51,332 nt of DNA from assembly GCF_000424065.1 (NCBI RefSeq), contig NZ_AUJE01000031.1, positions 1 through 51,332 on the forward strand. Reading direction: 5' to 3'. Below the pieces are notes generated by a model, which worked only from the letters and a program-made list of their open reading frames with translations, made no database searches and had not been told where the DNA came from. The position numbers and the translations under genes are program-made. Shown piece after piece: positions 3,621-9,806 of this stretch; within the stretch, counting starts at the first letter, position 1; each line of letters begins with the position of its first letter. This stretch comes from Selenomonas ruminantium subsp. ruminantium ATCC 12561. GTDB taxonomy: Bacteria > Bacillota > Negativicutes > Selenomonadales > Selenomonadaceae.

Positions 3621-4181
3621 CTAAAATTTTACATACTCCCGCAATTTCTGAAAATCAATATAGGTTTCCACTTGCGGATTCTTCGTTAAATAATCCTGAT
3701 GTTCTTCTTCGGCCGCCTGAAAATGCCTTAATGGCCCGGAAACTGCACAAAACCTACGGGCAAGTTTGGGATTGCTGTTCGGGTCATTGAGCGTAAGCTC
3801 ACCGTCTGGTGCCGGTGCCTTGCCGCGGTTGGCGATGAAATTCAGATGCAGCTGTATCTGTGGCTCATCTTCCCCATGCACATAGAATACACCTGCCCTG
3901 TACATCTCGCCCCGCGCCTTCCCCTGCCCATCGGGCACATAGGGATTGACCACGGCAAAAAGGATATCCAGCAGTTTAGAAATATCCATCTTTTTGGGGT
4001 TGTAGGTCACTTCCACGCCCATATAGGCGTTGCACCTGCCCGCAGCAACATCAGCATAGGTTGTATCCCCGTCCCCATTGATATAGCCTGTGCAAGTTAC
4101 CACAACGCCCGGCATATGGGCAAAAACCTCCTGCAGTTCATGGAAATTCCCGCCGGAAAAGTAGATTTTCTTGGTATACAA
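3621..4181 (-). CDS. MsrA-like protein lacking the catalytic cysteine
   Basis: The fold is that of peptide-methionine (S)-S-oxide reductase. GVVVTCTGYINGDGDTTYAD, MGVEVTYNP, MYRAGVFYV and HQDYLTKNP all align with family landmarks, and the length (186 residues) is normal. The catalytic motif GCFW is replaced by GNFH: Asn12 (codon AAT) stands where the nucleophilic cysteine belongs, and the tryptophan is lost as well. The conserved GHAE segment reads CNAY. It is thus unlikely to reduce methionine sulfoxide by the known mechanism. Cysteines remain at about 30 and 50. The TTG at 4181 is taken as the start because it lies 7 nt after AGGGG. It follows meaB by 4 bp and is the last gene of the mutase operon. 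Confidence 0.75.
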   Translation of the reverse strand: MYTKKIYFSGGNFHELQEVFAHMPGVVVTCTGYINGDGDTTYADVAAGRCNAYMGVEVTYNPKKMDISKLLDILFAVVNPYVPDGQGKARGEMYRAGVFYVHGEDEPQIQLHLNFIANRGKAPAPDGELTLNDPNSNPKLARRFCAVSGPLRHFQAAEEEHQDYLTKNPQVETYIDFQKLREYVKF

Positions 4182-4185
4182 ACAC

Positions 4186-5379
4186 TCACCCCTTTTCCTG
4201 CTCGGGATGGAAAATATCCACCTGACGATGCGCCGCCCGCTCCACATCAAAGAGTTTCACGAGCTCGGCCACCGCCTGCGTGGGCGAAATCGTGCCGTCG
4301 AGCACTGCCTCGCGCACCTCCGGCATTCTCCCCGTAATCACCGGGTCTTCAAAGAACAGATTGTGCAGATGCTCGTCAATCATGCTGTGCATCCAGTCCA
4401 AAAGCTGTCCATCCCGGCGCTTATCCCAGATGCCGCTCTTTTGGGTATTCTCCCGAAAGCCCTTGATGACTTCCCAAAGTTCTTTTAAGCCCGTCTTTTC
4501 GAGGGCCGAACACATATAGGCATGCGTTGGCCAGCCCGGAGTAGCCGGGCGGATGTATTCGAGCATCCGCTCATACTGGCCCCGCGATACCTTTGCCTTG
4601 ACCAGATTATCCCCATCGGCCTTGTTGACGACAATGGCATCGGCCAGTTCCATAATCCCCTTCTTGATTCCCTGCAATTCATCCCCGGCGCCAGTGAGCA
4701 CCACGAGCAGGAAGAAGTCCACCATCGAGCGCACGGTGGTTTCTGACTGGCCCACCCCAACGGTCTCAATGATAATCACATCATAACCTGCCGCCTCGCA
4801 CATCAGCATGGTTTCGCGGCTCTTGCGGGCAACGCCCCCCAGCGTCCCGCCTGCCGGCGAAGGACGGATAAAGGCCTCCCGCCGCCGTGACAGAGTCCCC
4901 ATCCGGGTCTTATCCCCCAGTATGGAGCCCTTGGTGACGGAACTGGTCGGGTCAACGGTCAGCACGGCAACCTTATGCCCTGCATCACAGAGCATATTGC
5001 CGAAAGCCTCAATCATGGTGCTTTTACCCGCTCCTGGCACACCGGTAATGCCAATGCGCAGGGCGCTCCCCGTATGCGGCAAAAGCCGCTGCAGCACCCT
5101 TTGGGCCTTGGCAAAATGGCGAGGGCTGTTGCTTTCAATCAGCGTGATGGCGCGGGAAAGCGTCATCCTGTCCCCCTTCAGCACCCCATCCACATAGTCA
5201 TCTTCGGACATGATCAGCCGTTTTTTCGGTTTCATCTTCCCGCTTTGCAGTGCAGGATTGATATTCCCCACGGTAGTATCCTTGATGCCTTCAATGCCCC
5301 CCATGACCGAACAGGCAAATTTTTCATTTGGTTCCTCTGGCACCCAGCTGGGCTTTGATGTACTGTATCTTTTCTCCAT
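4186..5379 (-). CDS. meaB: MeaB/ArgK-family GTPase, methylmalonyl-CoA mutase chaperone
   Basis: It is a G-protein that loads and protects the adenosylcobalamin cofactor of methylmalonyl-CoA mutase. The P-loop GVPGAGKST lies at about 111-119, followed by VDPTSS. The family hallmark ETVGVGQSE comes next, and NKAD is the guanine-recognition motif. The C-terminal helices are typical of this family. The first 60 residues form a longer N-terminal extension than in most MeaB proteins. Start: ATG at 5379 (or the adjacent one at 5382), 5 nt after GGAGG. It lies directly downstream of the mutase large subunit, but a strong terminator-like hairpin sits between them, so it may be made at a lower level than the mutase. 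Confidence 0.93.
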   Translation of the reverse strand: MEKRYSTSKPSWVPEEPNEKFACSVMGGIEGIKDTTVGNINPALQSGKMKPKKRLIMSEDDYVDGVLKGDRMTLSRAITLIESNSPRHFAKAQRVLQRLLPHTGSALRIGITGVPGAGKSTMIEAFGNMLCDAGHKVAVLTVDPTSSVTKGSILGDKTRMGTLSRRREAFIRPSPAGGTLGGVARKSRETMLMCEAAGYDVIIIETVGVGQSETTVRSMVDFFLLVVLTGAGDELQGIKKGIMELADAIVVNKADGDNLVKAKVSRGQYERMLEYIRPATPGWPTHAYMCSALEKTGLKELWEVIKGFRENTQKSGIWDKRRDGQLLDWMHSMIDEHLHNLFFEDPVITGRMPEVREAVLDGTISPTQAVAELVKLFDVERAAHRQVDIFHPEQEKG

Positions 5380-5392
5380 CATTGCCTCCTTC

Positions 5393-5425
5393 AAAAAGCC
5401 CTCCCTCAACATGCAGGGAGGGCTT
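5393..5425 (-). terminator. Terminator-like hairpin between mutase large subunit and meaB
   Basis: On the minus strand AGCCCTCCCT (5424-5415) pairs perfectly with AGGGAGGGCT (5406-5397), followed by TTTTT. It lies after the mutase stop codon and just before the meaB ribosome site. No separate meaB promoter is obvious, so it probably acts as a partial terminator that sets the ratio of mutase to chaperone, or protects the mutase mRNA 3' end. Confidence 0.8.
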
Positions 5426-5430
5426 GTCGG

Positions 5431-7629
5431 TTATTCTTCGGCCAGTTCCTCCTTCGCCCGGTCAATCAGCAGGGTCAAGAGCTTAATACCGGCCTCCGGG
5501 ATATTGGTGCCCGGCGCGAAAATCGCCACCGCACCATGCTCATAGAGATTGTCGTAATCCTGTACAGGAATTACGCCGCCAATGCAGACCATGATATCCT
5601 CACGGCCCAGCTTTTTGAGTTCCTCCACCAGTTGCGGCAGGAGGGTGTTATGACCGGCAGCCAGCGAGCTGAAGCCGACCATATGCACATCGTTGTCCAC
5701 GGCATCCTGCGCCGTTTCTTCCGGGGTCTGGAACAGCGGGCCCACATCGACATCCCAGCCCATGTCCGCAAAGGACGAGGCGATAACCTTCTGGCCACGG
5801 TCATGGCCGTCCTGGCCCATCTTGGCCACGAAGATACGCGGACGGCGCCCCGTGAGTTCTTCGAACTCGTCAGCCATGGAGCGGGCTTTCTCCAGTTCCG
5901 TCTTGTCGGTGAACTCGGAGGAATACACGCCGGAAATGGTATGGATAACCGCCTGATAGCGGCCCGAAACCTTTTCGACGGCATCGGAGATTTCGCCCAG
6001 GGATGCGCGTACTCGCGCGGCTTCCACGGCACATTCGAGCAAGTTGCCGTTATCGCGACTGTCAGCCGCCTTGGTAATCGCTTCGAGTGCCCGACGCACA
6101 TCATCGTCATTGCGTTCACGCCGCAATTTTTCGAGGCGTTCCACCTGTGCATTGCGCACGGCGGTGTTGTCGATGGCGAGGATTTCCAGCGGGTCTTCCT
6201 TTTCGAGACGGTACTTGTTCAGGCCCACAATCGTTTCGTTGCCAGAGTCGATTTGTGCCTGACGGCGGGCAGCGGCTTCCTCGATACGCATCTTGGGCAG
6301 GCCGGTAGAGATGGCCTTGGCCATGCCGCCCAGAGCTTCGACTTCCTGAATATGCGCCCAGGCACGGCGAATGATTTCGTTGGTAAGCGCTTCCACATAG
6401 TAGGAACCGCCCCAGGGGTCGATAATCTTGCAGACCTGCGTCTCGTCCTGAATATAGAGCTGCGTATTACGCGCAATGCGCGCCGAAAAATCCGTCGGCA
6501 GAGCGATGGCCTCGTCGAGGGCATTGGTATGCAGAGACTGGGTGTGCCCGAGAGCTGCGCCCATGGCCTCCATCGCCGTACGCGAGATATTGTTGAACGG
6601 ATCCTGCGCCGTAAGCGACCAACCCGAAGTCTGGCAATGTGTTCTGAGCGCCATGGACTTTGGTTCCTGCGCGCCAAAGGACTTGACGATTTTTGCCCAA
6701 AGCACGCGGGCCGCCCGCATCTTGGCCACTTCCATAAAGTAGTTCTTGCCAATCGCCCAGAAGAAAGACAGACGCTTGGCAAAGGCATCCACCGGCAGGC
6801 CGGCATTGATACCCGTGCGGATGTATTCCAGGCCATCGGCCAGCGTATAACCCAGTTCGATATCGGCAGGTGCGCCGGCCTCCTGCATGTGATAACCGGA
6901 AATCGAAATGCTGTTGAACTTGGGCATGTATTTCGTCGTGTACTCGAAGATATCCCCGATGATGCGCATGGACATTTCCGGCGGATAGATATAGGTGTTA
7001 CGCACCATAAATTCCTTCAGGATATCGTTCTGAATCGTGCCGGCCAGGATTTTCTTATCCACGCCCTGTTCGACACCGGACTGGATGAAGAAGGCGAGAA
7101 TCGGCAATACGGCGCCGTTCATGGTCATGGATACGGACATCTGGTCAAGGGGAATCCCCGAGAACAGGATGTTCATATCGAGCATGGAGCAGACCGACAC
7201 ACCGGCCTTACCTACATCACCGACTACGCGGGGATTATCCGCATCATAGCCGCGATGCGTCGGCAGGTCAAAGGCGATGGACAAGCCCTTCTGACCAGCG
7301 GCCAGATTGCGGCGGTAAAAGGCATTGGATTCCTCAGCCGTGGAAAAGCCTGCATACTGGCGTACCGTCCAGGGACGGAACACATACATGGTCGAATATG
7401 GCCCACGCAGGCATGGCGGAATACCGCTGGCAAAGTCCAGATGGTTCATATGGTCGTATTCATCATGGTTGTAGAATGGCTTTACGGGAATATGTTCCAT
7501 GGTACGGCGGGTAAGGTTATCAAACTCAGCCCCAGCCTGCGCAGAAAAGAGTTTTTCCCACTCTTTGGCATCTGCTCCCGTCGGTTCCCGCAGGCTCATC
7601 TTGGTAAAGTCAGGATTTTGGTAGCTCAT
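5431..7629 (-). CDS. mutB: Methylmalonyl-CoA mutase, large (catalytic) subunit
   Basis: It interconverts succinyl-CoA and (R)-methylmalonyl-CoA using adenosylcobalamin, the key carbon-skeleton step of propionate formation. At 732 residues it is full length. The N-terminal two-thirds form the substrate-binding barrel ([65 protein letters not shown]). The C-terminal cobalamin domain carries DGHDRG near residue 608-613, including the histidine that replaces the lower cobalt ligand, then GFSSLAAGH and CIGGVIP. The start overlaps the stop of the small subunit by one base (TAATG), so the two are translationally coupled into a heterodimer. Confidence 0.97.
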
Positions 7630-9806
7630 TATGCAATCATCCCTTTCTTCTGCTGCAGGAGCTGCAGGATTTTATAACAGTTGGCTTTAACGGAAATATA
7701 TTCGTCAATACCAGCTTCGTTGTAAGTTTCGAGCAAATCCTTCGGTGCGGCACCGGCCAAGAACACTGTCGCTTCAGGCAGTACCTCATGGAGTTTGGGC
7801 GCCAGCTGCGGCACGATTTCGGGATAGGTCGCATCGGTCGAACAGATAACCACGGCATCAGCCCCGGATTCTTTCGCTGCCTGGGCAGCTTCTTCCACGG
7901 TTGGGAAACCGTTATTGCCCAGCACCTCAAAGGCACCGACCTGCAAAAAGCCCGTGGTGAAATCGGCTCTGGCCTTGTGCTGCGGAATCGGCCCCATATT
8001 GGCGAGGAAAATCTTCACATTATCGTTATGCTCAGCCTTGTAAGCCTCCGTGGTCTTGCGCAGGGCTTCAAAGCGTTCACTCCAGCGGTGCGGGTCAATA
8101 GCCGTAACCGTTTCGCTTTCCTTGCCGGCCAAAGCAGCAGCGATTTCGACCGTCGTGGCACCGGCCTGTGCCGCTTCGACAGCCAGGCTGACCAGGCAGC
8201 CCTCACCATTCTGCAAGGCTTTGATTTTTTCGGCCTTGAAGGCTTCGTCGATATCGGCCAGATAGGCTTCGACCTGTGCCGTACGCTGTTTCTTGTTCTC
8301 CTCCACATCTTCGGGACGCGGGTCGAGCAATTTTTCCGTCATATTCGGGTACATATTGTTGCCCACGATACGGTCCTTGCGGGTTTCCGCAGCCTTGAAG
8401 CGGGCGGCAAGAATAGTTGCAATCTCACTCTGCGGATAACCTTCCTGCAAAGCCTTCAGCATCCCGCCCTTGCCCTCGATTACCTGGAACTCGGCCCAGA
8501 CTTTTTCCTTCATCTGCTTCGTGAGCGTTTCCACGGCCCAGGAGCCGCCGGCCGGGTCAATCGGCTGCAAGAGGCCGAATTCTTCCTGCAGGATAATCTG
8601 CACGTTACGCGCAATGCGGCGGGAGAATTCATCACCCTTGCGAATGGGCTCATCAAAGGGCGAGCTTTCAAAAGAATCCACGCCGCCCACGACACCGGAG
8701 AAAATCTCCGTGGTATTGCGGAGCATATTCACATAGGGGTCATAGACCGTCTTGAAGAACAATGCGGGACGCGCATGGATATGCATGCGCTGCGCGTCCT
8801 TACTGCCACCGAAAGCTTCGACAATCTGTGCCCAAAGCGGACGCAGGGCACGCAGTTTGGCAATCTGTAGGAAGAAGTTTGCCCCCATGGAGAAACCGAA
8901 CATTATCTGCCCGGCCGCTTCGTCTATGGTCAAGCCGCGTTCGAGCAAAGCCCGCAGATAAGCTACTGCTGTGGCCAGCGTATAAGCCGACTCCTGCACA
9001 TCATTGGCCCCGCCACGGCTGTACACATCACTGCGCACAAAGACCGTTTTTAGTCCCGGTGCATGTTTCACTGCCCACTTGGCGCACTTGGCCATATCGC
9101 AGTAAAGGCTTTCGAGGTCCTTGCTGTTTTTGCCCTTCGCCGTAAGTTCCCCCAACGGGTCAGCACCGACAATGCCGCGGATTTTCGTCAAATCCTGCCC
9201 GGAGGCTTTCAGTGCCCCGGCAAAGAGCGACAACATCGGCAGTGCCGATTCTCCGGCATAGAGATAGACAGGATATTTATCGAGTTTCAAGCCACTCAGC
9301 AGGGTGTGCATATCGTCCAGGGTCGTCACCGACACGCCCTCATCTCCGGGTGCAGCGGCCTTGCGCACATCTTCGGACTTTAAGCTCGCGCTGTCCAGTT
9401 TGATATGATAGATGGTCGAGCCCTTCTCCTGCTCATGGCGCAGAAGCTCGTTATTTTCCTCCGGCAGGGTTTCATCACAAACCTGCGCAATGCCCCAGGG
9501 CTTGCCCACATACCCGCTGGGCTGGGCACCGCGCAAATAGTCCCCCATTCCTGGGAAGGACTCTTTGGGCAGAATGTCCTCCGTGTCCTTGCGGAAGTAC
9601 ATGGGGTCAAAGGTGATGCCCTCATAGGTCTTGGTATACATCTTCTTGTCAAAGGGCGCCCCTTTGAGCAGGGTGATACAGGCCTCTTTCCACTCCTCAT
9701 AAGTCGGTGGAGTGAACTCATCAAGTGGCACATCAGGAAAGTCCGTCTGCTGCTCGGCCTTTTTCAAGATGGCCTGTAAATCCAGCTCGCTAGTTTCTTT
9801 ACTCAT
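7629..9806 (-). CDS. mutA: Methylmalonyl-CoA mutase, small subunit
   Basis: It is the non-catalytic partner of the heterodimeric mutase, 725 residues long. It shares the barrel-plus-B12-domain layout of the large subunit ([36 protein letters not shown]). Its C-terminal domain has lost the cobalt-binding DxHxxG motif: the equivalent region reads [16 protein letters not shown]. This is expected for small subunits, which do not hold cobalamin. The ATG at 9806 follows GGAGG at 7 nt. It is the first gene of the operon, 38 bp downstream of the riboswitch terminator. No methylmalonyl-CoA epimerase or decarboxylase gene lies in the operon. Confidence 0.95.

Follow-up and report, generated by a model that had tools for sequence, protein, structure and literature searches.

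Methionine sulfoxide reductase A (MsrA) is a widespread repair enzyme for oxidised methionine, and it is usually annotated by homology alone. Besides the nucleophile, Cys51, its Glu94 and Trp53 help to hold the substrate. A second, recycling cysteine, in the motif GYCHID (Cys198 of the Neisseria MsrA), is not used by every known MsrA.

The other described system that bears on this locus is the cobalamin chaperone of methylmalonyl-CoA mutase. In the excerpts of two papers that we cite, MeaB in its GTP-bound state is proposed to keep the mutase open so that AdoCbl can be inserted, and the MeaB–mutase system also removes damaged cobalamin (PMC9974510, PMC10481361). The named parts of this system are MeaB/MMAA, adenosyltransferase and mutase, and the excerpts do not mention an MsrA-fold protein (PMC9974510, PMC10481361). 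The gene analysed here, which encodes a Cys-less protein of the MsrA fold, differs in this respect from the described parts, but it resides in the gene cluster of the operon-type MeaB and has the same phylogenetic profile.

We analysed a stretch of 51,332 nucleotides from Selenomonas ruminantium subsp. ruminantium ATCC 12561 (contig NZ_AUJE01000031.1), hereafter the window, whose minus strand carries the gene order mutA-mutB-meaB-MsrA-like. The methylmalonyl-CoA mutase small subunit (7629..9806; PF01642) scores 393.4 with TIGR00642, below the cut-off of 617.25 of this model, whereas the large subunit with its B12-binding domain (5431..7629; NF006944, 1245.8 versus 876) and MeaB (4186..5412; NF006958, 480.5 versus 329) both exceed their NCBI equivalog cut-offs. 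MeaB, the MCM-associated GTPase, has 408 amino acids and matches PF03308 with an E-value of 7.9e-104; an N-terminal extension precedes its MeaB domain (residues 85-355). The MsrA-like gene (3621..4181, minus strand) runs for 186 codons from a TTG start at 4181 to a stop at 3623-3621, exactly the frame delimited in an earlier, sequence-only reading of this DNA. That reading had also described an MsrA homologue in the mutase operon that is coupled to meaB. We observed a PMSR domain match, and the meaB stop codon (4188-4186), immediately preceded by AAAAGGGG, lies 4 nt upstream of the MsrA-like start, in agreement with that description. Further along the same strand, the window encodes a DmsB-like 4Fe-4S protein (3552-3010) and then a PucR-type regulator (3009-1834), with no adjoining reductase subunit; among the 91 family loci described below, the window genome is the only one with a DmsB-like gene behind the MsrA-like gene.

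The MsrA-like protein matches Pfam PMSR (PF01625) with an E-value of 1.7e-27 and 97 bits (cut-off 23.7), and all 47 members of alignment set A2 match the same domain at E<=0.001. Its AlphaFold2 model has a mean pLDDT of 87.4, with residues 123-136 under 50, and the top Foldseek matches of this model are MsrA structures, the first being the MsrA of N. meningitidis PilB (TM 0.80). The window protein is thus predicted to adopt the MsrA fold. In common with MsrA it has this predicted fold, the domain extent, the GG motif ahead of the first helix, the GY(I/A)N and (M/Q)YR motifs and the HQ-Y-L tail motif.

The reactive residues are different. The position of the nucleophile Cys51 is occupied by Asn12, in SGGNFHELQ, and its codon is AAT (4146..4148), so the replacement of the catalytic cysteine was read correctly from the sequence at the outset. 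The same reading had given CNAY as the counterpart of GHAE; the loss of this motif is confirmed, but the register was one residue out. GHAE aligns with NAYM (residues 51-54), and hence the position of the catalytic Glu94 is Met54 (ATG, 4020..4022). Two losses come in addition to those noted earlier: the equivalent of Asp129 is Ala89 (GCG, 3915..3917), and the second redox cysteine is replaced by Thr173 (ACC, 3663..3665). In general, the Cys-less protein differs from MsrA by the absence of the nucleophile cysteine, the second redox cysteine and the tryptophan, and mostly also of the glutamate and aspartate, by an insert with NDPNS, and by the link of its gene to the mutase operon. The window copy also stays under the cut-off of the NCBI msrA equivalog TIGR00401 (95.1 versus 108.1). 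From the sequence, we infer that the Cys-less protein no longer reduces methionine sulfoxide. Five other Cys-less members were scanned with TIGR00401; three failed and two copies of family f32 passed (125.2 and 109.9). The latter (L183 and L185) have proline in place of the cysteine and would probably be annotated as active MsrA.

The state of the window gene is shared by its relatives. It is the single PMSR gene of the window genome, and 21 of the 22 genomes of the genus have exactly one such gene, without the cysteine in all 21 (Asp in 20, Asn in the window). No GGC string was found in any of the 167 locus proteins, comprising 91 from family genomes of any quality that were read for the motif and 76 from named loci, with many genomes in both sets and one member (L082) lacking a readable N-terminus. 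The individual motifs that were read likewise have no cysteine at this position. Across the family, the protein has a match at E<=0.001 in 156 of 189 genomes, two of which (G048 and G049) show canonical-like scores only. Mitsuokella, Schwartzia, Anaerovibrio, Pectinatus and Megamonas are among the genera of these relatives, and alignments of 29 and then 47 members define a protein with invariant positions of its own.

Within the class, a profile search of 380 genomes revealed further Cys-less forms in two other families. Those of f32 (5 genomes) read GGPYYG or GGSYYG and adjoin meaB; those of f2 (4 genomes) read AGGYVYDLQ, SGISVYDLQ, SGISACDMQ or an eroded AGKIDELLQ, and reside directly upstream of mutA. 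Outside the class we used a pattern-based contig scan, GG[DSN][FP][HYR]ELQ[EA], which demands D, S or N and therefore does not count Cys-bearing forms. Among the 147 stretches it yielded, 76 were relatives, and their titles all name Selenomonadaceae (the family or one of its genera), Selenomonadales or Veillonellaceae.

Next, we placed 43 Cys-less and 27 Cys-bearing sequences, chosen as rows, in one unrooted tree. All 43 Cys-less rows fall on one side of a single branch (bootstrap support 100/99), and the same branch has a support of 99/94 after removal of the active-site columns; the f32.G319, f1.G177 and L200 copies have long branches in this tree. Both redox cysteines are kept in 27/27 Cys-bearing rows. 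In the Cys-less rows, the Cys51 position is D in 18, S in 13, N in 5, P in 4 and Y, A and K in one each, and the GYCH cysteine is present in 0/43 (one row being gapped there). The highest-scoring Cys-bearing relatives are the MsrA proteins of family f34 (G348-G351), which have NPKKTDL- and GEDEP-like stretches in common with the Cys-less protein. Unlike it, they keep both cysteines, Glu, Asp and Trp, and two of the copies, with 184.1 and 187.0 bits, score above the cut-off of TIGR00401. A mutB-meaB pair of the long type is present in G348 and G349, but the MsrA gene of these two genomes is located elsewhere, next to a gene that we identified by eye as a putative acetyltransferase. Glu94 persists in the four f32 copies whose Cys is replaced by Pro, which suggests, short of proof, that the cysteine was lost first, ahead of the glutamate.

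In an alternative reading, the reworked pocket, in which Cys is replaced by Asp or Ser and Trp by His or Tyr while two tyrosines are retained, would have a new function, either catalysis on or binding of a small molecule from the pathway of methylmalonyl-CoA or cobalamin. The stability of GGDFHELQ or GGSF[HY]ELQ within many Selenomonadaceae is compatible with this, as is the presence of Tyr at the Tyr82 and Tyr134 positions in 34/43 and 31/43 Cys-less rows. Across the clade, however, the nucleophile position takes any of the seven residues listed above, and together with its two neighbours it shows about average column variability (47-62nd percentile). Moreover, the GHAE loop is shortened or missing in several lineages, and nothing is left of the nucleophile motif in the L200 copy of f2. 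Seven MsrA pocket positions are nearly invariant in the 27 Cys-bearing rows but vary to an intermediate degree in the 43 Cys-less ones; the catalytic columns move from the 0-12th entropy percentile in the former to the 34-70th in the latter. D66, E104, K63, Q17 and F115, on the other hand, are conserved to 93-100% in the Cys-less rows versus 11-23% in the others. This is the pattern expected if the active site was lost and other positions came under new constraints. It also argues against the pocket having become a different, conserved active site, and we consider such a function unlikely. One specific candidate, the replacement of methylmalonyl-CoA epimerase, was rejected, since the window genome has a true epimerase (TIGR03081 over its cut-off; G000:C6:34468-34857). 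A second, 46%-identical mutase is encoded near this epimerase gene (G000:C6:31374-34857), and the corresponding cluster in G148 adds a short meaB.

We then asked how closely the gene follows meaB, since the sequence-only reading had called for a count of orthologs in this arrangement. A same-strand meaB precedes the gene in 80 of the 91 family loci (two of which, L001 and L002, are one gene), at no more than 281 nt from the BLAST hit and mostly within 20, and in 67 of the 76 named loci, a set that overlaps the former in many genomes. Of the other nine named loci, two start near a contig end and one (L110) is preceded by fragments of the mutase; the remaining six, which all belong to genus g11, have neither meaB nor mutase in the available upstream sequence. 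No other conserved neighbour was observed: once the Cys-less gene, the mutase, MeaB and shadow frames on the reverse strand are set aside, the largest further cluster occurs in 8/76 loci. Seven of eight apparent meaB–MsrA-like overlaps arose from BLAST alignments running past the meaB stop and the eighth (L156) from a partial meaB with a shifted frame, so a fusion of the two genes was rejected. Four loci devoid of the Cys-less gene (L228, L230, L231 and L232) have a small ORF after meaB, with a core of ~97 aa that ends in ...NILLLxDSL; in L232 it has no Pfam match and a weak match to the LacT antiterminator (25.1 bits, far below the cut-off).

Presence and absence were compared in 99 family genomes that are at least 90% complete and at most 5% contaminated. 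Absences were assigned by subtraction for genomes with no listed match, and the motif was read in part of the 79 genomes scored as present. One genome with a weak, unclear match (G068) was dropped, and two were counted as lacking (G048, with a canonical MsrA only and a divergent meaB; G038, with a divergent meaB). The gene occurs together with operon-type meaB in 77 genomes and with an adjoining meaB cut at the contig end in two more. All 79 gene-bearing genomes thus have operon-type meaB, versus 4 of the 19 gene-less ones, 15 of which lack both (Fisher p 2.6e-12, a value that ignores shared ancestry). Sixteen genomes without gene and meaB were checked for mutase: eight have only a second, 45-49%-identical mutase, seven have none, and one (G023) has the operon-type mutase without either gene. 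In four genera, members without both have sisters with both: g1 (G145), g8 (G040, G041), g22 (G167) and g23 (G170, G171, G173). These seven genomes possess only the second mutase, 45-46% identical, or none. Operon-type meaB without the gene was found in genus g3 (G007, G012, G015, G018), in genus g11 (G059, G061, G062, G065, G093, G105, mostly incomplete assemblies) and, cut by a contig end, in G133. The Cys-less protein is therefore not needed for the mutase everywhere. Neither end of MeaB served as a marker of the gene: matches in gene-less families also start at query residue 13-17, so that the N-terminal extension was rejected as a co-marker, and the C-terminal tail looks longer in gene-bearing genomes but follows descent.

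These exceptions, namely the six g11 loci away from meaB and the mutAB-meaB clusters that do without the gene, could mean that the protein has a function unrelated to the mutase and shares the operon merely for expression. We regard this as quite unlikely, because it would then be a coincidence that some members of g1, g8, g22 and g23 lack the gene together with operon-type meaB, and that f2 links it to the mutase in a second gene order.

An inactive MsrA might also continue to bind methionine sulfoxide and act as a reader or shield of oxidised methionines in the mutase. In its favour, the fold is retained, as are some pocket residues (the two tyrosines and often Phe). The pocket Glu and Asp, however, are gone in most Cys-less members; Glu94 is lost in 39/43 rows and persists in 4/43, namely the f32 copies with proline described above, and Trp53 is lost in 43/43. 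The genus of the window also counts against it, since 0/22 genomes have an MsrB (SelR) match, as compared with 10/14 control genomes, and we consider this reading very improbable. As no Cys-bearing MsrA was found in these 22 genomes either, both of the standard enzymes that reduce methionine sulfoxide seem to be missing from the genus.

To assess constraint, we compared substitution ratios. Of 25 pairs of the MsrA-like gene, 19 have dS<1, and their dN/dS is 0.027-0.164; it is 0.077-0.247 in the six saturated pairs, which include all four window pairs. The value for meaB is 0.013-0.133 (22 pairs computed), and the MsrA-like gene evolves several times faster than meaB. That it is a decaying pseudogene or a neutral hitchhiker, as this faster evolution and its absence from some lineages might suggest, is largely refuted and retains hardly any probability, given the low dN/dS in the pairs with dS<1, the lack of internal stops among the family matches listed, except in G091, and the new near-invariant positions. 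Neither cysteine-bearing sisters nor relaxed constraint, the two findings that the sequence-only reading had named as refuting its proposal, were observed, and the proposal of a new role rather than decay is supported; the role suggested there, a binding protein or an assembly factor for the mutase, would fit these results. In comparison with L095, L097, L098 and L099, the two genes of the window differ: its meaB is 98-99% identical to theirs, its MsrA-like protein only 75-76%. Where dS was computed, for two pairs, it is 1.2-1.35 for the MsrA-like gene versus 0.27-0.40 for meaB. A recombination boundary at the meaB/MsrA-like junction of the window is likely.

The reactive parts have been lost, yet the gene is kept under selection beside the mutase and MeaB, and its product is therefore probably a non-enzymatic partner. 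The explanation we favour, as probable, is a pseudoenzyme of MsrA descent that works for the methylmalonyl-CoA mutase/MeaB module, in several families of the class. Such a protein would bind MeaB, the mutase or their complex, the newly conserved E15, Q17, K63, D66, D72, E104 and F115 being candidate binding positions, and it may act as an adaptor or stabiliser in GTP-driven cobalamin loading or in the removal of damaged cobalamin. Its translation directly behind meaB on a shared mRNA would provide matched amounts of the two proteins. More tentatively, and with somewhat less than even confidence, we suggest that this pseudoenzyme could be a third dedicated part of the machine for maturation and repair of the B12-dependent mutase, beside MeaB and adenosyltransferase, which was recruited once from an active MsrA and has been kept even in a genus without MsrA and MsrB activity. 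Our searches of open-access papers brought up no description of Cys-less MsrA homologues tied to the mutase.

For annotation, these results mean that about 90 of the genomes read appear to carry a version of MsrA without MsrA chemistry, and that two Cys-less members of f32 still pass the automatic msrA cut-off. The human counterpart of MeaB, MMAA, is defective in methylmalonic aciduria, according to the cited excerpt (PMC9974510). If the Cys-less protein is a true partner of MeaB, it would be a new component of the cobalamin chaperone system, and a part of the mutase pathway that lends itself to tests in rumen Selenomonas.
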